Assembly (NCBI RefSeq): GCF_003957295.1
Contig: NZ_RQPJ01000021.1
Span: 46,210 to 110,209, forward strand
From: Arenibacter aquaticus
GTDB lineage: Bacteria; Bacteroidota; Bacteroidia; Flavobacteriales; Flavobacteriaceae
Reading direction: 5' to 3'
DNA: 64,000 bases
In this document: positions 6,035-43,838 of the stretch, in pieces
Layout: the number at the start of each line of letters is the position of its first letter
How positions within the stretch are numbered: the first letter of the stretch is position 1
Made by a program: the position numbers and the translations under genes
Notes under the pieces: generated by a model
Databases searched by the model: none
Told to the model about the DNA's origin: nothing
What the model saw: the letters and a program-made list of their open reading frames with translations, nothing else

Positions 6035-6817
6035 ATGAGCAGATTGCGAATACTGTGTATTATTTTTTTTGGAATTACAATTTTTAAGACACAGGCACAG
6101 GCCGATACCCTTAGGGTGATGAGTTTTAATATTCTTCACGGGGCTACTACCCAAAACGATTTTAATTTAGATACTCTGGCGGGGGTTATAAACCATTATA
6201 AACCCCATTTGGTAGCCTTGCAAGAGGTAGACTTTAAGACCAATAGGGCCAAAAAATACGATCTGCCAACAGAATTGGGTATACGCACAAAAATGGCCTC
6301 CCTTTTTGCGCGCGCCATGTATTATGATGATGGGGAATATGGTGAGGCGGTGCTGTCACGCTACAGTTTTGTGGCAAGTGAAAATATAGCCCTGCCCCAT
6401 TTGCCAGCATCCGAACCCCGGGCAGCATTAATCACTAGGGTAAAGACCAAAAATGGCAACACCATACGGTTTGTGGCTACGCATCTGGACCACCAAAAGG
6501 AGGAGACCGATAGAATTATGCAGGCAAAGGCTATAGTAAAAGCTCTGGGGGATACCGAATATCCCACCTTGCTAGTGGGCGATTTAAATGCCGAGCCCGA
6601 TAGTGAAACCTTGAATATCCTGACAGAAAAATTTACCAAGACCCCACACAAGACGGCATGGCAGGGAACCTGGCCAGCAACAGGGCCCACAATATGTATT
6701 GATCATATACTCTTTAATACACCACAAAAATGGCAGGTATTGGATTATGAGGTGCTATGTGAAAATTATGCCAGTGATCATTGTATTGTTATGGCGACAC
6801 TGGTTTATTTACCTTGA
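6035..6817 (+). CDS. Exported endonuclease/exonuclease/phosphatase family protein
   Basis: A 260-residue protein with a cleavable signal peptide (hydrophobic residues 6-20, ending in TQAQA). The EEP-fold motifs are all visible: SFNILHG near 30, LQEVD near 61, THLDHQ near 152, VGDLNAEPDSE near 187, IDHILF near 222 and the terminal SDHCIV. These residues bind the metal and cleave phosphodiesters or phosphomonoesters. Export and small size suggest a periplasmic or secreted phosphodiesterase, but the substrate (nucleic acid, sphingolipid head group or inositol phosphate) cannot be read from the sequence. Its last 29 bases overlap the 3' end of the convergent gene at 6789-7802. Confidence 0.88.
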   Translation: MSRLRILCIIFFGITIFKTQAQADTLRVMSFNILHGATTQNDFNLDTLAGVINHYKPHLVALQEVDFKTNRAKKYDLPTELGIRTKMASLFARAMYYDDGEYGEAVLSRYSFVASENIALPHLPASEPRAALITRVKTKNGNTIRFVATHLDHQKEETDRIMQAKAIVKALGDTEYPTLLVGDLNAEPDSETLNILTEKFTKTPHKTAWQGTWPATGPTICIDHILFNTPQKWQVLDYEVLCENYASDHCIVMATLVYLP

Positions 6818-7802
6818 CCGAATGTTGTTTTAGGAATTCCCCACGTACCAATTTGGCCGTTTGATGTTCCCCTGTGTGGCTCCAGCCTGGAGGCATTACA
6901 ATATAAAGTAATTTGTTCTTTATACCCGGTGCCCTGGCGACGTCCTTGAAAAGGGCCACGAATTCCCCAAAATATACATCCCAAAAATTCCCGGAGTCCA
7001 TTTCCCTAGTGATACCATATTCTATTTTTATATCCCGCTCTTCATTTTGGAAGGTACCAAAAACCTTGTCCCAAATATTTAACAGGTTACAGAAATTGGT
7101 ATCCATGTAAAGCGGATTTTTGGCGTGGTGTACCCTGTGGTGGGAAGGCGTTAATATGAGTCTGTTCAAGAAGCCCATTCTACCATCTTTCATCATATTT
7201 TCACCTACATGTATAAAGGCCCCATAGGTGCCATCTATAAACATTATGGCGAAAAGCATAACCGGTTCTACCCCAAGTAGGATACACACGGTGGTTCTAA
7301 TAGCATCGGCATAGGGTGCCTCAAGAAAGAAATGGGCATGGGTAACGGAGAGGTTCATTTGCTCCGGGGCATGGTGGGTAGAATGCAAACACCAAAAGAG
7401 TCGCACTTTATGCCCCCAATAGTGATACAGAAAATGACCAAATTCCCAGACAATGTAACCGTAAATAAACCAATACCAGGTCATTTTGGTCTGGAACAGG
7501 GCATAGGGCTGCAACCACCCTATTATAAGTGTTACCATGGCAATGGCTATGAACCTGCCAATAAACCTATTAAATACATATATTAGGAAATTAACCTTAT
7601 ACACCTTGGTGTCGGGTTTTTTATAGACCAGGCCCAGTATAAATTCCAGAATCAGCAATAGGGGAATAATAGGGTAGATCAAGGCTACAACCCCGTCATA
7701 GGTAGAGAAAATACTATAGTCCCCTGCCTGTAATAATTCCAAAGCCTTACTAATTCCCAAGAAACCAATGACTTCATTGTATAGAGTACCTAAGATATCC
7801 AT
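6789..7802 (-). CDS. Sterol desaturase / fatty acid hydroxylase family membrane protein
   Basis: A 337-residue integral membrane di-iron enzyme. The family histidine boxes are present: HFLYHYWGHK around 130-140, HSTHHAPE around 148-152 and HRVHHAKN around 218-224. Four or five hydrophobic segments lie at about 38-60, 75-110 and 165-195. The family inserts hydroxyl groups or double bonds into lipids using O2. In Bacteroidota, which lack sterols, the substrate is probably a fatty acyl or sphingo/sulfonolipid chain. A second member lies at 38176-39132; the two share the histidine layout but are clearly different in sequence. Confidence 0.88.
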   Translation of the reverse strand: MDILGTLYNEVIGFLGISKALELLQAGDYSIFSTYDGVVALIYPIIPLLLILEFILGLVYKKPDTKVYKVNFLIYVFNRFIGRFIAIAMVTLIIGWLQPYALFQTKMTWYWFIYGYIVWEFGHFLYHYWGHKVRLFWCLHSTHHAPEQMNLSVTHAHFFLEAPYADAIRTTVCILLGVEPVMLFAIMFIDGTYGAFIHVGENMMKDGRMGFLNRLILTPSHHRVHHAKNPLYMDTNFCNLLNIWDKVFGTFQNEERDIKIEYGITREMDSGNFWDVYFGEFVALFKDVARAPGIKNKLLYIVMPPGWSHTGEHQTAKLVRGEFLKQHSVKVNKPVSP

Positions 7803-33195: not shown

Positions 33196-35256
33196 ATGCA
33201 GCGGGAAGTAAAAACACCAAGTGCAAAAAAAATAGCAAAGCAATTAATAAAGCACGGGGATGTTAGGACAGATGATTATTACTGGTTGAACCAAAGAGAA
33301 GATCCGGAGGTTATTGCCTATTTGCAGGAGGAAAACGAATATTACGAGGCACTGACCGCCCATACCAATGATTTAAAGGAAAGCCTATTCCGGGAAATGA
33401 GGTCTAGGATAAAGGAAGATGATACCTCTGTGCCATACAAATATAACGGGTATTGGTATGCTACACGTTATGAGTTGGGGAAAGAATACCCCATATTTAC
33501 CAGACGATTTGGAAAGGAAGATGCGGTAGAGGAGATCATGTTCAACTGTAATATCATGGCAGAGGGCTTTGATTACTTCAGTTTGGGAGGGCTTGCGGTA
33601 AGTCCCAATAATGAATTGGCAGCATTTTCAGTAGATACGGTTTCCAGAAGACAATATACCCTGCAGATTAAGAATTTACGCAGTGGGGAAGTGTATACGG
33701 ATAAAATAGAAAATACTACGGGGAGTGCCGTATGGGCCAACGACAACAAAACTCTTTTTTATACTAAAAAAGATCCGGTAACCCTTCGTTCCAATAATAT
33801 TTATAAGCATATACTGGGAACTCCGCCAGAGCAGGACCAGTTGGTCTTTCATGAAGAGGACGAGACCTTTACCACTTTTGTGTATAAAACCAAATCCAGG
33901 GAGTTTATTGTAATTGGTTCTTCCAGTACCTTGACCTCCGAATATCAGATTTTAAGGGCAGATGAGCCCAATGGTCAGTTTCAGATTTTCTCCAAACGTG
34001 AGCGTGGTTTGGAATATTCCATAGCTCATTACAATGACAATTTTTATATACTCACCAATAGGGATGGGGCTACCAATTTTAAGTTGATGACAACGCCCGA
34101 AGACAGGACCGAATCGGGGAACTGGGTAGATTTTATACCCCATAGGGAAGAGGTATTGTTGGAAGATATAGAGATGTTCCATGATTATTATGTGCTATCC
34201 GAGCGGGAAAACGGTCTAAATAAACTAAAAATTGTCCGTTGGGATACCGGAGAGGGTTACTACCTTCCTTTTGATAACGAGACGTATACGGCCTATGTTG
34301 GTACCAATCCGGATTTTGATACTGAAATTTTAAGGTATGGCTATAATTCACTCACTACTCCCAGTTCTGTAATAGATTTTAATATGCGGACCAAGGTGAA
34401 GGAAGTGAAAAAGGAACAAGAGGTTTTGGGAGGCAACTTTCATAAGGAAAACTACATTTCGGAAAGAGTCTGGGCCACAGCCCGGGACGGTAAAAAAATA
34501 CCAATTTCCCTAGTTTACCACAAGGATACCCAATTGGACGGCAGCAGTCCCCTGCTGCAATATGCCTACGGTTCTTACGGGCATACTATAGATTCTTATT
34601 TCTCATCTGTGCGACTAAGTTTATTGGACCGAGGCTTTATTTATGCCATAGCCCACGTTAGGGGAGGGGAATACCTTGGTAGAAAATGGTATGAGGAAGG
34701 AAGATTGCTTTACAAAAAAAATACGTTCACCGATTTTATTGATTGTTCTAAATTTTTAATTGAAAAAGAATATACCGCAGCGGAGCATTTATACGCTTCT
34801 GGAGGGTCTGCCGGGGGGTTATTGATGGGGGCCGTTATAAATCTGTCTCCCGAAATCTACAACGGCGTTATAGCAGCGGTGCCATTTGTAGATGTGCTAA
34901 CCACTATGTTGGATGATACCATTCCATTGACCACGGGGGAATACGATGAATGGGGCAATCCCAATGAAAAGGAGTATTATGATTATATGAAGTCATATTC
35001 ACCCTATGATAATGTAACAGCTAAAAAATATCCCAATATATTGGTTATTACCGGTTTGCATGATTCCCAGGTACAATATTTTGAGCCTGCCAAATGGGTA
35101 GCGAAACTTAGGGAGTATAAAAAAGATGAAAATTTATTGCTTTTTAACATCAATATGGATGCAGGCCATGGCGGTGCCTCAGGGCGTTTTGAGGCCCTTC
35201 GGGAAGTAGCCAAAGAATACGCATTTTTATTAGATTTGGAGCATAAAATTCGATAA
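33196..35256 (+). CDS. ptrB: Prolyl oligopeptidase family peptidase (oligopeptidase B-like)
   Basis: A 686-residue S9A serine peptidase. The N-terminal beta-propeller (about 70-410) precedes the alpha/beta-hydrolase domain with the catalytic Ser in GGSAGGLLMG (near 536), Asp in GLHDSQV (near 620) and His in AGHGGASGR (near 656). ARxxGTKIP-like KDGKKIPISLVYHKD and RGGEYLGRKW segments match oligopeptidase B, which cleaves peptides after basic residues. No signal peptide seen, so probably cytoplasmic. It is followed by a small gap and the cysteine-synthase-like gene. Confidence 0.92.
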   Translation: MQREVKTPSAKKIAKQLIKHGDVRTDDYYWLNQREDPEVIAYLQEENEYYEALTAHTNDLKESLFREMRSRIKEDDTSVPYKYNGYWYATRYELGKEYPIFTRRFGKEDAVEEIMFNCNIMAEGFDYFSLGGLAVSPNNELAAFSVDTVSRRQYTLQIKNLRSGEVYTDKIENTTGSAVWANDNKTLFYTKKDPVTLRSNNIYKHILGTPPEQDQLVFHEEDETFTTFVYKTKSREFIVIGSSSTLTSEYQILRADEPNGQFQIFSKRERGLEYSIAHYNDNFYILTNRDGATNFKLMTTPEDRTESGNWVDFIPHREEVLLEDIEMFHDYYVLSERENGLNKLKIVRWDTGEGYYLPFDNETYTAYVGTNPDFDTEILRYGYNSLTTPSSVIDFNMRTKVKEVKKEQEVLGGNFHKENYISERVWATARDGKKIPISLVYHKDTQLDGSSPLLQYAYGSYGHTIDSYFSSVRLSLLDRGFIYAIAHVRGGEYLGRKWYEEGRLLYKKNTFTDFIDCSKFLIEKEYTAAEHLYASGGSAGGLLMGAVINLSPEIYNGVIAAVPFVDVLTTMLDDTIPLTTGEYDEWGNPNEKEYYDYMKSYSPYDNVTAKKYPNILVITGLHDSQVQYFEPAKWVAKLREYKKDENLLLFNINMDAGHGGASGRFEALREVAKEYAFLLDLEHKIR

Positions 35257-35270
35257 TCAAAAAAAAAGAC

Positions 35271-35278
35271 TAATTTTG
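35271..35278 (+). promoter_or_regulatory. Possible -7 element of the cysteine-synthase-like gene
   Basis: TAATTTTG matches TAnnTTTG, 59 bases before the ATG at 35338. The upstream TTG is too far (32-base spacer), so the match is partial. Confidence 0.4.
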
Positions 35279-35282
35279 TCCT

Positions 35283-35319
35283 GATCTTATTGGTGTAATT
35301 TTAGCGTATCAATAAGGTC
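35283..35319 (+). promoter_or_regulatory. Inverted repeat in the leader of the cysteine-synthase-like gene
   Basis: GATCTTATTG (35283-35292) and CAATAAGGTC (35310-35319) pair over 10 positions with one G-U pair and a 17-base loop. It lies between the -7 element and the ATG. A leader stem or an operator; no T-run follows. Confidence 0.5.
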
Positions 35320-35337
35320 TAAACCTAGAAACTGTTT

Positions 35338-36378
35338 ATGGAACATAAGATCAATGCTTATAACAATCTCCTTGAGCTTGTAGGAAACACTCCATTAATC
35401 AAACTAAATAAAATAGCCGACTCCCTAAAAGGTAACTTTTACGCCAAGGTAGAAGGCTTTAATCCAGGACATTCTTCCAAAGACCGTATTGCCCTTTATA
35501 TAATAGAAGAGGCAGAGCGAACGGGGCTACTAAAAGAAGGAAGCACTATAATAGAGACTACTTCGGGAAATACGGGATTTAGCATTGCCATGATCAGTAT
35601 TATAAAGGGGTACGACTGCATACTGGCAGTAAGTTCAAAATCTTCCAAGGACAAAATAGATATGCTAAGGTCTATGGGTGCCAAGGTCTATGTGTGTCCT
35701 GCCCATGTGAGTCCGGATGACCCAAGATCCTATTACGAGGTGGCCAAGAGACTACATGAAGAAACCGAAGGCTCCATTTATATAAATCAATATTTTAACC
35801 AATTGAATGCTGAGGCCCATTACCACAGTACAGGGCCGGAAATATGGAAACAGACCAATGGACATATTACCCACTTGGTTGCTTGTAGCGGAACCGGAGG
35901 GACTATTTCCGGAACAGCTAAATATCTAAAGGAACAAAATCCCGATATACGTGTTATTGGAGTGGATGCATATGGTTCCGTTTTAAAAAAATATCATGAA
36001 ACAGGGGAATTGGATACCAAGGAAATATATCCTTATCGTATAGAGGGACTTGGTAAAAATTTGATTCCTACGGCTACCAATTTTAAGGTCATAGACGAAT
36101 TTATTAAGGTAACCGACGAAGAGAGTGCCCATACAGCAAGGGAAATTTCCAAAACCGAAGGCATTTTTGCAGGTTATACCAGTGGAGCGGTAATGCAAGC
36201 GGTAAGGCAGTTGAATGAAATGGGGGAGTTTAAGGAAAATAGTAATGTTATCATGATTTTTCCCGACCACGGTTCCCGATATATGAGTAAAATATACAGC
36301 GATCAGTGGATGAACGATCAAGGTTTCTTTGACAGTAAAAATGTAGAAGAACCACAGAAAATAGAATTCGTAAAATAG
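35338..36378 (+). CDS. Cysteine synthase family PLP enzyme; possible cysteate synthase
   Basis: A 346-residue fold-type II PLP enzyme. The PLP Lys is in [10 protein letters not shown] near residue 48 (most cysteine synthases read GSVKDR), the substrate loop is TTSGNTGFS near 77 and the phosphate loop is [10 protein letters not shown] near 187; GYTSGAV near 280 replaces the usual GSSGA. The family makes cysteine or cystathionine from activated serine. Here the next gene is an AONS-family acyltransferase, an arrangement that fits a cysteate synthase feeding sulfonolipid synthesis. Chemically tested homologues use O-phosphoserine and sulfite, but a plain cysteine synthase cannot be excluded. Confidence 0.8.
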
Positions 36379-36412
36379 TAAAGTGAAAAGTATATGTTTT
36401 TAACAATATGGG

Positions 36413-36442
36413 AAGCAACGGTAAGTAAGTCGTTGCTTTTTA
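36413..36442 (+). terminator. Likely terminator after the cysteine-synthase-like gene
   Basis: AAGCAACG (36413-36420), 10-base loop, CGTTGCTT (36431-36438), then TTTTAT. Eight-base perfect stem. Confidence 0.7.
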
Positions 36443-36455
36443 TGTCTTAAAATAG

Positions 36456-36487
36456 TTGTGTATGCTTATTAAAAATATATACTTTTG
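36456..36487 (+). promoter_or_regulatory. Bacteroidota promoter TTG-N21-TACTTTTG
   Basis: TTG at 36456-36458, 21 bases, TACTTTTG at 36480-36487: a full match to the Bacteroidota consensus. 23 bases before the ATG at 36511. It shows that the acyltransferase-like gene can be transcribed independently. Confidence 0.8.
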
Positions 36488-36510
36488 CAAAATTAATCAA
36501 CGTAGGATAG

Positions 36511-37770
36511 ATGAGAGATTTATTTGACAGAATTATCGAAAATAAAGGTCCATTAGGAAAATGGGCGTCCCAAGCAGAAGGGTATTTTGTATTCCCTAAA
36601 TTGGAGGGGCCTATATCCAATAGGATGAAATTTCAGGGAAAGGAAGTAATTACCTGGAGTATTAACGACTACCTAGGACTTGCCAATCTGCCAGAAGTTA
36701 AAAAAGTAGATGGTGAGGCAGCGTTGGAATATGGAGCAGCCTTCCCTATGGGGGCCAGGATGATGAGTGGACATACAGAATTCCATGAGCAATTGGAGCA
36801 GGAGCTTGCAGCTTTTGTGCAAAAAGAATCTGCATATTTATTGAATTTTGGTTATCAGGGTATGGTTTCGGCCATTGATGCCCTTGTTTCCAAGGATGAT
36901 ATTATAGTATATGATGTTGATTCCCATGCTTGTATTATTGATGGGGTTCGACTGCATATGGGTAAGCGTTTTACCTTTAAACACAATGATATTGGTAGTC
37001 TGGAGAAAAACCTTGATCGTGCCGTGAAATTGGCCGAGCAGACCGGAGGTGGTATATTGGTTATCTCCGAAGGTGTTTTTGGAATGCGCGGGGAGCAAGG
37101 TAAGTTGAAGGAGATTGTTGCCCTGAAAAAGAAGTATAAATTTAGATTGTTCGTGGACGATGCCCACGGTTTTGGAACTCTTGGAAAAACAGGAGCCGGA
37201 ACAGGAGAAGAGCAGGGGATTCAGGATGAAATTGATGTTTATTTTGCAACTTTTGCAAAATCTATGGCAGGTATCGGGGCTTTTTTGGCCGCGGACGAAG
37301 AGATAATAGATTATCTTAAGTACAATTTGCGCTCCCAGATGTTTGCTAAATCATTGCCAATGATTTATGTAAAAGGGGCCTTGAAAAGACTGGAAATGTT
37401 GCGCACCCAGCCAGAGCTTAAGGCGAAACTTTGGGAGAACGTAAACGCTTTGCAGAACGGGCTTAAGGAAAGAGGTTTTGATATAGGGACTACCACCAGC
37501 TGTGTAACCCCAGTGTATTTAAATGGTAGTATTCCGGAAGCAATGGCCTTAGTTAAAGATCTTAGGGAAAACTTTGGGATATTCTGTTCTATTGTAGTGT
37601 ATCCGGTAATACCTAAAGGATTAATCCTTTTGAGGATGATTCCAACGGCTACCCATACCCTACAAGATGTTTCAGAGACCTTGGAAGCTTTTTCTGTTAT
37701 TCGGGAGCGTTTGCAAAATGGAACATACAAAAGACTATCTGCCGCTGTAGCTGCTGCTATGGGAGAGTAG
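36511..37770 (+). CDS. Serine palmitoyltransferase-like (AONS family) enzyme; possible cysteate acyltransferase
   Basis: A 419-residue fold-type I PLP enzyme of the alpha-oxoamine synthase group. It joins an amino acid to a fatty acyl thioester with loss of CO2. Motifs: DSHACIIDGVRLHMGKRFTF near 145, FVDDAHGFGTLGKTGAGT near 213 and the PLP lysine in FATFAKSMAGIGAF near 247. The partner amino acid is serine in sphingolipid synthesis and cysteate in sulfonolipid (capnine) synthesis. The cysteine-synthase-like neighbour upstream points to cysteate; serine remains possible. Bacteroidota acyltransferases of this group share the start MRDLFDRI. Confidence 0.85.
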   Translation: MRDLFDRIIENKGPLGKWASQAEGYFVFPKLEGPISNRMKFQGKEVITWSINDYLGLANLPEVKKVDGEAALEYGAAFPMGARMMSGHTEFHEQLEQELAAFVQKESAYLLNFGYQGMVSAIDALVSKDDIIVYDVDSHACIIDGVRLHMGKRFTFKHNDIGSLEKNLDRAVKLAEQTGGGILVISEGVFGMRGEQGKLKEIVALKKKYKFRLFVDDAHGFGTLGKTGAGTGEEQGIQDEIDVYFATFAKSMAGIGAFLAADEEIIDYLKYNLRSQMFAKSLPMIYVKGALKRLEMLRTQPELKAKLWENVNALQNGLKERGFDIGTTTSCVTPVYLNGSIPEAMALVKDLRENFGIFCSIVVYPVIPKGLILLRMIPTATHTLQDVSETLEAFSVIRERLQNGTYKRLSAAVAAAMGE

Positions 37771-38175
37771 TGATAGAAAAAGGTAATGCAATACAATAGC
37801 CAACTTAGTTCTCTAAGTTGGCTATTTTTTTGTTTTGATGATAGATGGGGTAAACCATTGTCTTTCTAAAAATGGACTGGGGAGTTGTTGGTGCCCAAAT
37901 ACTTTTTGGGTATTGTCCAAATTGGTTTTAATCATTTTTCATTGTGTCCATTGGGGAAATGGCCGATGTATTAACCAATGCCGGGTAGTTTTGGGTTAAT
38001 ACTTATTCTTGTTGAGGGTAGTGTACTTAAAAAACAATCCACTAAGGAATATCATTACAGAATAGTAAAGGTTGGTCTAATGCCAGGACTATTTTTGGTC
38101 CATGCCCTAAGAAAAGCTTGTAAGGTGTTTGATTAAATAAATCGCACTGTGGTTAAATTAGCCGCTTTTAAAGCG
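37771..38175. other. Intergenic stretch between convergent genes
   Basis: 405 bases. Apart from the terminator at 37795-37832 nothing recognisable: no open frame with gene-like features and no repeat shared with the rest of the window. Confidence 0.6.
37795..37832 (+). terminator. Terminator after the acyltransferase-like gene
   Basis: AATAGCCAACTTAG (37795-37808), loop TTCT, CTAAGTTGGCTATT (37813-37826): a perfect 14-base stem with a T-run behind it. Confidence 0.92.
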
Positions 38176-39132
38176 TTAATTTGGTCTGCTGAAGGCAACC
38201 TTGGGGTTGCTGTCTTTTTGTTTCTTAAATAACCGCTGTTGCTGTTTAACTGTTAAGGTGCTGCCGTCCGGACTCCATCCTGGAGGGCCAAAAATATACA
38301 TAAAGGCGTGAGAAAGCTTTTTGGCTTTCTTTACATCATTGTATATATCTTTAAATTCATGGGTAAGGATAACAACCGGATTGTGGCTGTTTGGTGCGTG
38401 GATAACGCCGTACTTCACATCAATATCGTCATCAAGTTCTTTCCAGGTGCCAAACATTTTGTCGAATATATTCAAAAATCCACCGTGGTTTTTGTCCAAG
38501 TATTCTACATTTTGGGCGTGGTGTACCTGGTGCATGGTGTGGGTGTTGAATATTTTTTCCAAGAAGCCCATTTTTGGCACATAAACCGTATGCAGTTGAA
38601 ACTGCCATAATGCTTCTATTCCCAGGCATACAACCACCATTTCTGGAGGGAAGCCAATTGCTGGCATCCACATGTAGAACAATGGTTTGTAAAGAATGGT
38701 AAACCAACCGTTGCGAACCGCAGTTCCAAGGTTAAAGTTGTCCGAAGAATGGTGAACAATATGTGCAGCCCATAAAATACGGATCTCGTGATTGGCTCTA
38801 TGGAACCAATAATAGGTGAAATCGTCCGCTAACTGACATAAGAGCCATACATACCATGCATAACCAAAAGACTCATAGCCCAAAATATTGGTTCTTACCC
38901 CATCGGTGACAGGATTGAAAAAATTGTACGTAAATTCGAATATTACAATAGCCGATACAACCTTGATCAAAGGGGCTATAATTGCGGATCCAACTCCCAT
39001 AAAGCCACTGGCCGCCAAATCCTTCCAATCATATAAATGATCGTCACCATGCGTTTTGCTATACGTTAGCTCTAATAATATGAATGCAATAAAACAGGGA
39101 ACACCGTATACCAAGGGGTTGGTAAAATCCAT
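38176..39132 (-). CDS. Sterol desaturase / fatty acid hydroxylase family membrane protein
   Basis: A 318-residue membrane di-iron protein. Histidine boxes: HRANHE near 120, HIVHHSS near 133, HTMHQVHHAQN near 202. Membrane segments about 8-25, 45-75, 90-110, 145-165. The family hydroxylates or desaturates lipid chains with O2. It faces the serine-palmitoyltransferase-like gene convergently and has its own consensus promoter. In the context of sulfonolipid genes the substrate may be an amide-linked or long-chain-base acyl chain; this is inference from location only. Confidence 0.87.
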   Translation of the reverse strand: MDFTNPLVYGVPCFIAFILLELTYSKTHGDDHLYDWKDLAASGFMGVGSAIIAPLIKVVSAIVIFEFTYNFFNPVTDGVRTNILGYESFGYAWYVWLLCQLADDFTYYWFHRANHEIRILWAAHIVHHSSDNFNLGTAVRNGWFTILYKPLFYMWMPAIGFPPEMVVVCLGIEALWQFQLHTVYVPKMGFLEKIFNTHTMHQVHHAQNVEYLDKNHGGFLNIFDKMFGTWKELDDDIDVKYGVIHAPNSHNPVVILTHEFKDIYNDVKKAKKLSHAFMYIFGPPGWSPDGSTLTVKQQQRLFKKQKDSNPKVAFSRPN

Positions 39133-39149
39133 AGAAAAATCAATTTTCG

Positions 39150-39181
39150 CAAATATATAACAATATTGACTTAATCTTCAA
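39150..39181 (-). promoter_or_regulatory. Bacteroidota promoter of the hydroxylase gene
   Basis: On the minus strand TTG (39181-39179), 21 bases, TATATTTG (39157-39150): full consensus match. 17 bases before the ATG at 39132. Confidence 0.8.
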
Positions 39182-39257: not shown

Positions 39258-41930
39258 TTAAAAAAGCCGTGGTTGTGAGTCGTCATCCTCTTTTGATTCT
39301 TTTTTTTGTTGTCCCCCAGCGTTGCTAGAGTTGGAATTGTCCGCTGCCGAATTTTTGTCGCCCCCCACATTTTCCTCGTCTACCACTTCCATATCGGTAG
39401 GGTTGCTTTTTTCTGGCTCCTCATAGGGTAGTGGATCCAAGGCGTTGATATTCTTAACCTTGTCTGCAGTTAATTGATTGCCTAAAGCCTTTATTCCCTT
39501 TATTGCTATAAATTCCTCCAGTTCAACGGTTTGATTGGGCTTGGCGTCTTTGCCCCTGGGTTTAACAAATTCTATTTCTATAACCGGTTTCCAGTCGGTG
39601 GAAATGAGCTCCAAGAAAGATTTGGGGTGCTCGGAAATAAACAGATCCTCCTTGTTTTCGTTCTCTATCAAGAATCGCTTCACGTAGTAGCGCTCTTTTT
39701 CTCCTTCGTAATATACGGCGGACAACGGTTTGTTGGGGTTCCATTTTTCCAGTACTATCATGTCCTCATCAAAATGTGTGGATAGGTTTGGGGTAAAGGT
39801 TTTGGCAACTCCTTTTTGGGTGACCACCAAGAGCATGTCCTCTCCTTTGAACTCCCCTAACAGCTCCCCTCGGCCGTCTACATTTAGTCTTCGAACCACC
39901 TCGTCAAACCATATTTTTCTGGGTTTTAATGTGGAGACGCCTTTTTCTTTCAGTTCAATCCGCTTTACGGAGTATTTGGTAACGATGTTGCCTTTGGAGC
40001 CCCTACCTTTTATTAGGACATCGGCAAAATCAATATCCCATTTTAATTTTTTAACACTGCCTACCTGTCTAAGGTGCACGGTGATCACTTCTGCTTCTCC
40101 ATTGGGGTTGGCAGTGAAGTAAAGTACTTCGGATTGGGGCTTTCCGGTGGTAAGGTCGTAAAGTTTGTCCCTGGTTACACTGGTTACGTTGAATCTCTTT
40201 ATGTAGCTAGCGCCTCCCTTACCGTCTTTATAGATCATATTGTAGGTGGTGCGCTTGTCTTTCTTTTTAAACACGGCAACGTGGATAATATTTTTACCTA
40301 CAAAAATTTTGGAGTCCACCTTGGCAACCATCATTTTTCCGTCGCGGGTAAATACAATAATATCGTCTATATCACTACAGTCGGTTACATATTCGTCCCG
40401 TCTTAGGGAGGTGCCCACAAAACCTTCTTCCTTGTTTACGTACAGTTTGGTGTTTCTGATTACTACTTTTGTGGCTTCGATGTCGTCAAAAATACGAATC
40501 TCCGATTTTCGTTCCCTACCTTTACCGTACTTTTCTTTTAGAGACTTAAAGTAGTTGATAGCGAATTCAATAAGATTGGCTAAGTGATGTTTTACTTCAG
40601 CTATTTTTTCTTCCAGACTATCCAGGTGTTGCTGCGCCTTGTCCAGGTCAAACTTGGAAATTCTCTTAATTCTAATTTCAGTAAGTCGAACAATGTCTTC
40701 TTCGGTCACCTTTCTTTTTAGGTGTTTTGTGTGAGGGGCAAGACCCTTGTCGATGGCTGCAATAACTCCTTCCCAGGTTTCTTCCTCTTCAATGTCCCTA
40801 TATATTCTATTTTCGATAAAGATACGCTCAAGGGAGGCAAAATGCCATTGTTCTTCCAGTTCCCCTAGCTGTATTTCCAGTTCCGATTTTAAAAGCTCCA
40901 CGGTGTAGTCCGTAGATCGCCTTAGCATCTCCGTAACCCCTATAAAAAGAGGTTTGTTGTCTTCGATAATACAGCCCAATGGTGATATGGAGGATTCGCA
41001 GGAGGTAAAGGCATAAAGGGCATCAATGGTTTTGTCCGGCGACAGGCCCGAGGGTAGGTGAACCAAAATTTCTACTTCTGCAGCGGTATTGTCCTCTATC
41101 TTTTTAATTTTTATCTTCCCTTTGTCATTTGCTTTTAGAATGGAGTCTATTAAAGAAGAGGTGTTGGTCCCATAGGGTATTTCTTTGATTACCAAGGTGT
41201 TTTTGTCCAATTGTTGGATCTTGGCCCTGACCCTGATCTTTCCACCTCTCATTCCGTCATTGTAATTGCTTACGTCTATGACCCCTGATGTTGGGAAGTC
41301 GGGGAAAATGGTGAATTTTTTGCCCTTCAGGTGTTTTATGGAGGCATCTATCAGTTCGTTGAAATTGTGCGGCAATACTTTTGTGGATAATCCTACTGCG
41401 ATTCCCTCCGCCCCTTGGGCCAATAGTAAGGGGAATTTAACGGGGAGGTTTACCGGTTCTTTTTTTCTACCGTCGTAAGAAAGTTGCCATTCCGTAATTT
41501 TTGGGCTATAGACTACTTCCAGTGCAAATTTGGTTAGTCTGGCCTCAATATATCGGGATGCAGCTGCGCTGTCCCCTGTCAAAATGTTGCCCCAGTTCCC
41601 CTGGGTATCTATAAGTAGGTCTTTTTGCCCAATTTGAACCATGGCGTCCGCTATACTGGCATCTCCGTGGGGGTGATACTGCATTGTATGTCCAACAACA
41701 TTGGCCACCTTATTGTATCGGCCGTCGTCCAGTTCCTTAAGGGCATGCATTATTCTGCGTTGAACCGGCTTAAAACCATCTTCAATGGCCGGTACGGCGC
41801 GTTCCAATATAACATAGGAAGCATAGTCTAAAAACCAATCTTTATACATTCCCGTAACCTTGGTAAGGGTATTTTGGGAAGCTTCTTGCTTGTCTTGGGG
41901 TACTTCGTTCAGTTCTTCGTTCTCTTCCAT
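39258..41930 (-). CDS. parC: DNA topoisomerase IV subunit A (GyrA/ParC family)
   Basis: Breaks and rejoins DNA in decatenation. An 890-residue protein: catalytic tyrosine in AAASRYIEARLT (about 119), the N-terminal DYASYVILERAVPAIEDGFKPVQRR motif, then the coiled-coil gate and a C-terminal beta-propeller-like region (about 520-800), with an acidic, low-complexity tail (about 830-885). The subunit pair without an adjacent gyrase gene and the 620-residue B subunit next to it support topoisomerase IV rather than gyrase, but the two paralogues cannot be fully separated by eye. It follows parE after 45 bases. Confidence 0.9.
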   Translation of the reverse strand: MEENEELNEVPQDKQEASQNTLTKVTGMYKDWFLDYASYVILERAVPAIEDGFKPVQRRIMHALKELDDGRYNKVANVVGHTMQYHPHGDASIADAMVQIGQKDLLIDTQGNWGNILTGDSAAASRYIEARLTKFALEVVYSPKITEWQLSYDGRKKEPVNLPVKFPLLLAQGAEGIAVGLSTKVLPHNFNELIDASIKHLKGKKFTIFPDFPTSGVIDVSNYNDGMRGGKIRVRAKIQQLDKNTLVIKEIPYGTNTSSLIDSILKANDKGKIKIKKIEDNTAAEVEILVHLPSGLSPDKTIDALYAFTSCESSISPLGCIIEDNKPLFIGVTEMLRRSTDYTVELLKSELEIQLGELEEQWHFASLERIFIENRIYRDIEEEETWEGVIAAIDKGLAPHTKHLKRKVTEEDIVRLTEIRIKRISKFDLDKAQQHLDSLEEKIAEVKHHLANLIEFAINYFKSLKEKYGKGRERKSEIRIFDDIEATKVVIRNTKLYVNKEEGFVGTSLRRDEYVTDCSDIDDIIVFTRDGKMMVAKVDSKIFVGKNIIHVAVFKKKDKRTTYNMIYKDGKGGASYIKRFNVTSVTRDKLYDLTTGKPQSEVLYFTANPNGEAEVITVHLRQVGSVKKLKWDIDFADVLIKGRGSKGNIVTKYSVKRIELKEKGVSTLKPRKIWFDEVVRRLNVDGRGELLGEFKGEDMLLVVTQKGVAKTFTPNLSTHFDEDMIVLEKWNPNKPLSAVYYEGEKERYYVKRFLIENENKEDLFISEHPKSFLELISTDWKPVIEIEFVKPRGKDAKPNQTVELEEFIAIKGIKALGNQLTADKVKNINALDPLPYEEPEKSNPTDMEVVDEENVGGDKNSAADNSNSSNAGGQQKKESKEDDDSQPRLF

Positions 41931-41975
41931 AAAGAAAGAATCGTGTTAGTTTGGCCTGCCTGCGAGCGGGCTGAT

Positions 41976-43838
41976 TTATATTTGGTTTTCTTCAACTAGG
42001 TCAACCTCTACTTTAAGGTTATTAATAATGAATTCTTGCCTGTTGGGGGTGTTTTTGCCCATGTAAAATTCAAGCAGGTTTTCAATGGACATTGCTTTGT
42101 CCAGCATTACCGGCTCTAATCTAATGTCTTCACCAATAAAATGTTTAAACTCATCTGGGGAAATTTCTCCAAGTCCTTTAAATCGGGTTATTTCTGGTTT
42201 TCCACTTAATTTATCTATGGCCTGTGCCTTTTCTTCCGGACTGTAACAATAAATAGTCTCCTTTTTGTTACGGACCCGGAACAGTGGGGTCTGCAGAATG
42301 TAGAGGTGGTTTTCTTTTATTAACTCAGGGAAGAATTGCAGGAAAAACGTAATCAACAGCAAGCGTATGTGCATACCGTCCACATCGGCATCAGTGGCTA
42401 TTACGATTTTGTTGTACCTTAGGTCTTCCATAGAGTCCTCTATGTTTAAAGCGGCCTGTAATAGGTTGAATTCCTCATTTTCATAAACAATTTTTTTGGA
42501 CATCCCGTAGGAGTTAAGGGGTTTTCCCCTTAAGCTGAAAACGGCCTGGGTGTTTACATCCCTGGATTTGGTTATGGATCCGGATGCCGAATCACCCTCC
42601 GTGATAAACAAGGTGCTTTCTAGGCATCTGGAGTTCTTGGAATCAGCCAAGTGTACTCTACAATCCCTTAGTTTTTTATTGTGGAGACTCGCCTTTTTTG
42701 CTCTGTCCTTGGCTAGTTTTCTAATTCCCGAAAGCTCTTTGCGCTCCCGTTCGGCCTGCATTATTTTCCGCTGTAGCTTTTCTGCGGTTTCTGGGTTTTT
42801 ATGTAGGTAATTGTCCAGATGTTTGCCTACAAAATCATTTACGTAGGTCCTTACGGTAGGTAAATCGCCACCCATATCCGTGGACCCCAGTTTGGTTTTG
42901 GTCTGACTTTCAAAGACGGGTTCCATGACCTTTATGGCAATTGCGGATATGATAGATTTTCTAATATCCGAGGGATCGTAATTCTTTCCATAAAAATCTC
43001 GTACGGTCCTTACAATGGCCTCCCTGAAGGCAGATTGGTGCGTACCGCCCTGAGTAGTATTCTGTCCGTTTACAAAGGAATGGTATTCTTCGCTGTATTG
43101 TGTCTTGCTATGGGTGAGGGCAATTTCAATATCGTCTCCCTTTAAATGGATTATGGGGTAGGCCATATCCTCCATACTGTTGTTGTCTTCCAGTAGGTCT
43201 TTGAGGCCATTGGCGGAGTGAAATTTTTCACCGTTGTAGACAATTGTTAGGCCTGGATTGAGGTAAACGTAGTTTTTGAGCATACGTTCTACATACTCAT
43301 TCCTGTATTTGTAATTTTTAAATATGATTTCATCAGGGGTGAAGGATACTTTGGTCCCTTTTCTCTTGGAGGTATCCTCGGGGCCAGTTTCCGCCACCAG
43401 ATTACCTTGATGAAATTCTGCTATTTTTAGTTTGCTTTCACGGGAGGATTCTACCTTAAAAAAACTGGACAGGGCGTTGACGGCCTTGGTACCAACACCA
43501 TTAAGCCCTACAGATTTTTTAAACGCACGGGAATCATATTTGCCCCCCGTATTCATTTTGGAAACTACATCGACCACTTTTCCCAAAGGAATTCCCCGAC
43601 CGTAATCCCTAACATTAACGGTGTTGTCCCTTATGACAATTTCAATAGTTTTTCCAGCACCCATAACAAACTCATCAATGCAGTTGTCTATAACCTCTTT
43701 TAAAAGTATATAAATACCGTCATCTGCAGAAGAACCATCACCCAGCTTGCCAATGTACATTCCCGGGCGCATTCTAATATGCTCCTTCCAGTCTAATGAG
43801 CGTATGTTGTCTTCTGTATATTGGGTGTTATCTGACAT
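41976..43838 (-). CDS. parE: DNA topoisomerase IV subunit B
   Basis: ATPase partner of the A subunit. A 620-residue GHKL-type ATPase with [11 protein letters not shown] near 47 (Mg/ATP Asn), GRGIPLG near 80, [19 protein letters not shown] near 98 and the TOPRIM motifs EGDSASG near 415 and [10 protein letters not shown] near 485. Ends with [11 protein letters not shown], a typical B-subunit tail. It is transcribed before parC and spaced by 45 bases, so one operon. Upstream lies a long gene-free stretch. Confidence 0.92.

Follow-up and report, generated by a model that had tools for sequence, protein, structure and literature searches.

The 64,000-nucleotide window analysed here, taken from Arenibacter aquaticus (contig NZ_RQPJ01000021.1, positions 46,210 to 110,209, of a 5.23-Mb genome in 24 contigs), carries at 35338–37770 a capA-capB gene pair predicted to encode the cysteate synthase and the cysteate acyltransferase of sulfonolipid synthesis. 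The hydroxylase-like gene facing this pair appears to come from a separate hydroxylase-ParC-ParE block that was set beside CapB by a rearrangement. We assign a probability of about 0.93 to this reading. An earlier interpretation made from the letters of the DNA (hereafter the sequence-only reading) had described two pyridoxal 5'-phosphate (PLP) enzymes and a facing hydroxylase-like gene lying side by side, and an open reading frame (ORF) check of the window found all three intact and placed as described. The enzyme family membership, the diagnostic residues and the gene neighbourhoods of the pair were observed directly; that the organism makes the sulfonolipid is what we infer from them.

The first gene, capA (35338–36378, plus strand, 346 aa), encodes a PLP enzyme of fold type II, recognized as a PALP-fold enzyme in the profile search. 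The NCBIfam model for cysteate synthase (NF053679, CysteaSynCapA) scored 653.3 bits against its equivalog cut-off of 600 and aligned residues 3–330 with profile positions 2–329, whereas the protein stayed under the NCBIfam cut-offs for cystathionine beta-synthase (CBS; 388 vs 510 bits), CysK (271 vs 351 for TIGR01139, and 307 vs 387) and CysM (249 vs 394). Against the CapA model, eight CBS-like proteins of the family reached only 457–478 bits; a separate CysM, scoring above its own cut-off, is encoded in the genome. The closest solved sequence in the PDB search was 9k2p (522 bits), which bears no title beyond 'PLP-dependent protein beta subunit', followed by a CBS at 277 bits. The 9k2p row is found unchanged within the CapA of a genome of the same family (G023), to which the window CapA is 66% identical. 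By homology, the window CapA is predicted to convert O-phosphoserine to cysteate, sulfite being the co-substrate of CapA.

Two loops of this protein, singled out as unusual by the sequence-only reading, turned out to be CapA-family signatures. Alignment placed GHSSKDR, the PLP-lysine loop, at residues 44–50 (35467–35487, plus strand) and GYTSGA, a C-terminal loop, at residues 279–284 (36172–36189, plus strand). Among 121 CapA rows more than 60% identical, representing 112 distinct sequences, the PLP loop read GHSSKDR in 69, GHSAKDR in 31 and GHSTKDR in 10 among the variants listed, and GYTSGA was present in 107 of them as well as in 9k2p, whose PLP loop reads GHSAKDR. Ten lower-identity relatives, comprising the eight CBS-like proteins, the genome's own CysM and one degenerate CapA, mostly carry GNSVKDR together with GNSAGA or GNSAGS instead. 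A 35-row tree grouped the window CapA with 9k2p (99/96), apart from the eight CBS-like proteins, 7xrq and CysM.

The second gene, capB or sulA (36511–37770, plus strand, 419 aa), was confirmed as an alpha-oxoamine synthase (PF00155), which is the enzyme type that had been proposed for it together with serine palmitoyltransferase (SPT). The PDB entry 28eh, 'Cysteate-C-fatty acyltransferase', matched it across residues 1–419 with 729 bits, and SulA (7u7h) gave 573 bits at 61% identity, compared with 237 bits for the SPT entries 3a2b/8guh (34% identity to 8guh). The SPT model of the CFB group (NF047600) scored 288.2 bits and thus fell short of its cut-off of 640. The 28eh row is again contained letter for letter in the corresponding protein of G023, to which the window CapB is 74.5% identical. 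Residue K250 (37258–37260, plus strand) aligns with SulA K251 and is the PLP Schiff-base lysine; it is lysine in all 137 CapB rows (122 distinct sequences) and likewise in three paralogues of the genome, two of which are glycine C-acetyltransferases (KBL) above cut-off and one a BioF-like protein below cut-off. Residue K280 (37348–37350, plus strand) aligns with SulA K281, and is also lysine in 137/137 rows, but Ala in the SPT 8guh and Asn, Asn and Thr in the three paralogues. It is regarded here as a proposed cysteate-transferase marker, as Lys281 of SulA was put forward as a possible discriminator of sulfonolipid and sphingolipid condensing enzymes in the available part of PMC9304779. The CapB tree separated the window CapB, grouped with 28eh and 7u7h at 100/99 support, from SPT, KBL and the BioF-like protein, and a search of the window's genome for SPT at E ≤ 1e-150 found none. 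The window CapB is predicted by homology to use cysteate.

The two enzymes share folds and superfamilies with CysK/CBS and with SPT, so that one might read the locus as serving the ordinary metabolism of cysteine or cystathionine, with an SPT for sphingolipids alongside. We consider this extremely improbable: CapA reached the cut-off of its own model while those for CBS, CysK, CysM and SPT were not reached, the genome already holds a distinct CysM and yielded no SPT in the search above, and K280, the CapA loops and both trees disagree with such an assignment. Grouping with ordinary CysK/CysM and SPT, named in the sequence-only reading as an outcome that would refute its proposal, did not occur. 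Its proposal of a cysteate synthase and a cysteate acyltransferase is strongly supported by the CapA cut-off, the 28eh/SulA match, K280 and the trees. Several observations nevertheless weigh against the capA-capB assignment. In the CapA tree, 16 of the 31 inner branches are open and long end branches lead to 7xrq, CysM, the degenerate CapA and three CapA rows; the program warned that long branches meet there, so that some joins could be artefacts. Five rows of the CapB tree are long. The profile search of the window CapB brought up no NCBIfam model of CapB, and the protein's membership is therefore based on similarity, on K280 and on the tree. The gap between CapA and CapB is 132 bp with a promoter-like site inside, which does not imply co-transcription. 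Lastly, the best ketoreductase found in the genome (L171:1495-2304 on contig G000:C17), for which the top model is 3-ketodihydrosphingosine reductase, is only a candidate with 255 bits against a cut-off of 400.

On the capA-capB reading, CapA would form L-cysteate from O-phosphoserine, and CapB would condense cysteate with an acyl thioester to give 3-ketocapnine with loss of CO2, both reactions being taken from the available parts of PMC9304779 and PMC10191378. A ketoreductase encoded elsewhere would then reduce 3-ketocapnine to capnine, and N-acylation of capnine would yield the outer-membrane sulfonolipid. The accessible portion of PMC11211663 describes, for two species, three active reductases apiece, away from the first two pathway genes. 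A short-chain dehydrogenase lies between CapA and CapB in two genomes (G030, L131:4675-5535; G077, L132:4634-5479); the two proteins are 59% identical to each other and possibly represent an in-operon 3-ketocapnine reductase. Their best match in the window genome is just 32% identical, and hence orthology is not claimed. Other genes inserted between CapA and CapB in the four gapped loci examined encode a Cupin_8 protein, an MFS transporter and two proteins judged by eye to be lipoprotein-like, and none of these recurred among the compared loci.

The pair belongs to a known system, of which it is a standard example, and is ordinary for the family, not special to the window locus. This was examined in a family sample of 100 same-family genomes, a single genome per genus, 81 of which have at least 90% completeness and at most 5% contamination. 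CapB, called at E ≤ 1e-100, was present in 97 genera, and CapA in 94, the latter counted by protein search after a CBS-like group about 55% identical among the matches listed had been set aside. All 94 CapA genera carry CapB, with the two genes at most 5 kb apart in 92 and on separate contigs in the other two; for this and the other neighbour distances only the best CapB was used for G022, G062 and G066. Three CapB genera lack a counted CapA: G022 carries CapB twice, both times at the end of a contig, and CapA was not seen; in G093 a CapA fragment alone was seen next to CapB; and G014 is the third. In G014, a degenerate-looking CapA (L140:5442-6467; 49% identical, 369 bits vs 600) stands next to an intact CapB where capA would be expected, and its PLP glycine loop reads SFGDSG in place of TSGNTG. 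In a single genus of the family, four genomes (G164, G200, G293 and G320) have CapA away from CapB. CapA also occurs in 79 of 80 named CapB loci, a sample composed of best matches only.

A wider sample of 247 genomes of the organism's class was also searched. CapB-like proteins, called at the same threshold with K280 unchecked, were found in 218 genomes, whereas CapA scored above its cut-off in seven, namely the seven that belong to the window's family. A sub-threshold CapA-like gene stands beside CapB in G120 (546 bits) and G241 (508 bits); the remaining CapA-model matches listed scored about 455–493 bits, in or near the CBS-like range. The CapA search of 14 control genomes found none. Cysteate is perhaps made by another route in most genomes of the class. 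Alistipes and Odoribacter produce it via an archaeal-type enzyme and not CapA according to the available part of PMC10191378, and the seven CapA against 218 CapB-like genomes agree with this split in cysteate supply. SPT exceeded its cut-off in 19 of the 247 genomes; as a side observation, sulfonolipid-type condensing enzymes thus look far commoner than sphingolipid ones in this sample (218 CapB-like vs 19 SPT).

The third gene encodes an FA_hydroxylase protein (38176–39132, minus strand, 318 aa; PF04116) with intact histidine boxes HRANH, HIVHH and HQVHH, in agreement with the hydroxylase-like gene reported opposite the pair. Its sole NCBIfam match was OlsE (NF052566) at 44 bits against a cut-off of 475, PDB sequence and profile searches gave no credible match, and its structure model was poor, with a mean predicted local distance difference test (pLDDT) score of 62.7. 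In the window it lies beside two type II topoisomerase genes (39258–43838, minus strand) called ParC (39258–41930; above the cut-off of NF009397, 'DNA gyrase/topoisomerase IV subunit A') and ParE (41976–43838; matched by GyrB/ParE subunit B models, none above cut-off), which are its usual neighbours in close relatives. Eleven other genera hold a hydroxylase orthologue more than 80% identical, and in the loci compared for ten of them (L151–L160; G037 left out) ParC/ParE adjoins the hydroxylase in 10/10, in some with one small ORF between. Ten more distant hydroxylase loci (L161–L170) are not beside ParC-ParE. Among eight named Arenibacter records, whose CapB is 96–98% identical to that of the window, seven have a convergent 372-aa GNAT-like gene after CapB, and A. 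hampyeongensis (L051) has hydroxylase-ParC-ParE. The window genome retains the GNAT gene in its usual orientation at 137–145 kb of contig C19, which puts it 53 kb rightward of CapB; as in relatives, it is followed by genes for an outer-membrane protein, an 87-aa ORF, a YfhO-like protein and a glycosyltransferase. This distance indicates that a stretch of about 53 kb lies between CapB and its usual neighbour, with the hydroxylase as its first gene. The hydroxylase-ParC-ParE block would have reached CapB when this stretch came in between, and the CapB-hydroxylase adjacency is hence taken as the derived state, the direction of the rearrangement being deduced from relatives.

The sequence-only reading had tentatively linked the hydroxylase to the lipid made by CapA and CapB, as a three-gene sulfonolipid module, and this link did not withstand the comparison. 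In favour of the module, the gene is adjacent to and convergent with CapB, its histidine boxes are intact, A. hampyeongensis shares this neighbour, and all 35 genera with an orthologue (a match above 500 bits; a looser E ≤ 1e-40 gives some match in 55 of the 100 genomes) bear CapB. Because CapB is present in 97 of the 100 genera, such co-presence says little, and 62 of the 97 CapB genera have no orthologue. The two genes lie at most 5 kb apart in one of the 35 genera having both, that of the window genome; they share a contig in 17 of the 35, and the next nearest pairs stand 11.7 and 20 kb from each other. The remaining 34 genera comprise 16 with both on the same contig, none within 5 kb, and 18 with the genes on different contigs; no distance can be given for these 18, a point in the module's favour. 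The GNAT gene standing in the hydroxylase's place in 7/8 named Arenibacter loci, the ParC/ParE neighbourhood in 10/10 of the closest genera, and the opposite strand with a terminator-like hairpin between the hydroxylase and CapB also speak against the module. Membership of the hydroxylase in the pathway was rejected on linkage and distribution, and the three-gene module is accordingly very unlikely; the capA-capB pair beside a displaced hydroxylase-ParC-ParE block is preferred. A second FA_hydroxylase gene was noticed at window 6789–7802 (PF04116, 80 bits), which is weakly OlsE-like.

The displaced GNAT gene, outside the window (G000:C19:137093-138208, equivalent to L198:11091-12209), encodes a 372-aa tandem-GNAT protein and is the usual CapB neighbour in the family. 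It lies at most 5 kb from CapB in 65 of the 88 same-family genera having both (presence judged at E ≤ 1e-60), and stands by CapB in 70 of the 80 named loci, convergent in all 70; two of the other ten loci have short flanks. In three of the four genomes of the genus whose CapA lies elsewhere (G200, G293 and G320), it still adjoins CapB. Its structure model (mean pLDDT 80.7) shows a tandem-GNAT fold, with 2wpw and 7q3a as best fold matches and FemX and aminoacyl-phosphatidylglycerol synthases as weaker ones. Homologues in the class sample were called at E ≤ 1e-40, a threshold picked after a gap was seen (next weaker match, 8.7e-35), and were found in 57 of the 247 genomes, including 19/19 of the SPT-bearing ones (Fisher p = 5e-14, relatedness ignored). 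In 11 of these 19, the GNAT gene comes immediately after SPT in the same orientation, the two matches being separated by 24–601 bp, and in 9 of the 11 a gene of 328–336 aa comes next, three of which were scanned and are of the PF01370 epimerase type. We read this gene order, putatively, as SPT followed by a ceramide synthase and a ceramide reductase. A tree built from 24 GNAT proteins shows a 100/100 split: of those linked to SPT, two (42% and 38% identical) share the CapB-linked side, and the other nine (27–30% identical) are on the far side. Only one class genome, G294, has GNAT but neither SPT nor CapB.

The GNAT gene thus displays a genomic association with condensing enzymes of the type described for the bacterial ceramide synthase bCerS (11/19 beside SPT, 65/88 near CapB), and a Bacteroides fragilis ceramide synthase, BF9343_4218, is cited in the accessible part of PMC10865984. 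We give even odds to the displaced protein being a capnine N-acyltransferase of the same family as the ceramide synthase beside SPT in other Bacteroidia; it may N-acylate long-chain bases, working with SPT in some Bacteroidia and with CapB in Flavobacteriaceae. That the gene after CapB is only syntenic and unrelated to capnine is a real possibility, short of an even chance. Such a coincidence is favoured by its convergent orientation, by the synteny of the genes beyond it (outer-membrane protein, YfhO-like and glycosyltransferase), and by its absence, at E ≤ 1e-60, from 9 of the 97 same-family CapB genera, of which five have genomes 99% complete or better. GNAT is no more frequent in CapB-bearing class genomes (48/218) than in CapB-negative ones (9/29; Fisher p = 0.35, relatedness ignored), and nine of the eleven SPT-adjacent homologues are the distant ones on the far side of the tree. 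A homologue 40–42% identical was also seen directly beside ParE in three SPT-bearing genomes (L225–L227 from G206, G131 and G172), and this too fits chance neighbourhood. The universal presence in SPT genomes, the 11 loci directly downstream of SPT, the recurrent 328–336-aa gene, the two SPT-operon proteins on the CapB-linked side and the position beside CapB in three of the four genomes where CapA lies elsewhere all argue for the N-acyltransferase. Its association with condensing enzymes appears only once SPT is included, and co-occurrence alone as a case for a capnine-specific enzyme was rejected at class level by the counts of 48/218 and 9/29. The available parts of PMC11211663 and PMC10191378 name no gene for capnine N-acylation, and none of the paper titles and abstract openings listed in the searches announces one, although work published in 2022 by Stankeviciute et al. 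and by Liu et al. may bear on it.

Regulatory signals in the window were also scanned. A promoter-like site of the Bacteroidota type, TTG-N21-TACTTTTG, lies upstream of capB (36456–36487, plus strand) as a pattern match that is not evidence of function, and a second pattern match, TTG-N21-TANNTTTG, is upstream of the hydroxylase (39150–39181, minus strand). The N21 spacing was picked after the CapB site had been spotted by eye, and the TTG-N21-TANNTTTG scan gave 5 matches against 1.8 expected in the window, which is weak evidence. The earlier pattern TTTG-N17-23-TANNTTTG gave 7 against 4.8 expected and did not contain the CapB and hydroxylase sites, and a sigma-70 scan of the window gave 10 against 13.3 expected. 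Separate promoters for these genes, as the sequence-only reading supposed, are plausible. A TAATTTTG box, spotted by eye, coincides with position 35271, where that reading began its region. A hairpin scan located a terminator-like hairpin after capB (37795–37826, plus strand; 14 pairs, loop of 4, then a T-run), and such a scan of the window yielded 4 against 3.9 expected, again weak evidence. Upstream of CapA lies a gene for an oligopeptidase-B-like S9 peptidase (33196–35256, plus strand; PF02897 and PF00326), a conserved neighbour for which pathway membership is not claimed. It is present in 77 of the 80 named CapB loci and is not known to be linked to lipid synthesis; YbaB is present in 75.

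These results settle how a sulfonolipid pair present in almost every genus of the one-genome-per-genus family sample should be annotated, and remove a misleading hydroxylase link. The main interest of the locus is that the GNAT gene becomes a testable candidate for capnine N-acylation, the final step towards sulfonolipids, which are tied to gliding, choanoflagellate development and inflammation in the available part of PMC11211663. If the candidate is true, one N-acyltransferase family would serve both sphingolipids and sulfonolipids.

Known systems resemble the window genes to different degrees. The ornithine lipid hydroxylase OlsE (NF052566) is a weak match of the window hydroxylase, as scored above. 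Bacterial SPT (3a2b/8guh, NF047600) shares with the window CapB the fold family, the PLP lysine and the checked His, Asp, His, Asn and Arg, but the window CapB scores 288 bits against the SPT cut-off of 640 and has K280 where SPT has Ala. CFAT Fjoh_2419 of Flavobacterium johnsoniae (Vences-Guzman et al. 2021) is the same enzyme type according to PMC11211663 and PMC9304779, both available in part, and is likened here by citation, not by sequence. The CapA/CapB/CapC capnine pathway of Capnocytophaga (Liu et al. 2022), as given in the available part of PMC10191378, shares CapA with the window by the curated model and CapB by similarity; unlike in that pathway, a CapC gene was not recognized in or near the window pair, and the ketoreductase is a candidate. 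In Alistipes, cysteate comes from the archaeal-type enzyme, unlike in the window organism (PMC10191378, same part). Its condensing enzyme, SulA of Alistipes finegoldii (7u7h; PMC9304779, available in part), is a full-length homologue of the window CapB, 61% identical, with identical residues at 7/7 active-site positions checked, K280 among them.

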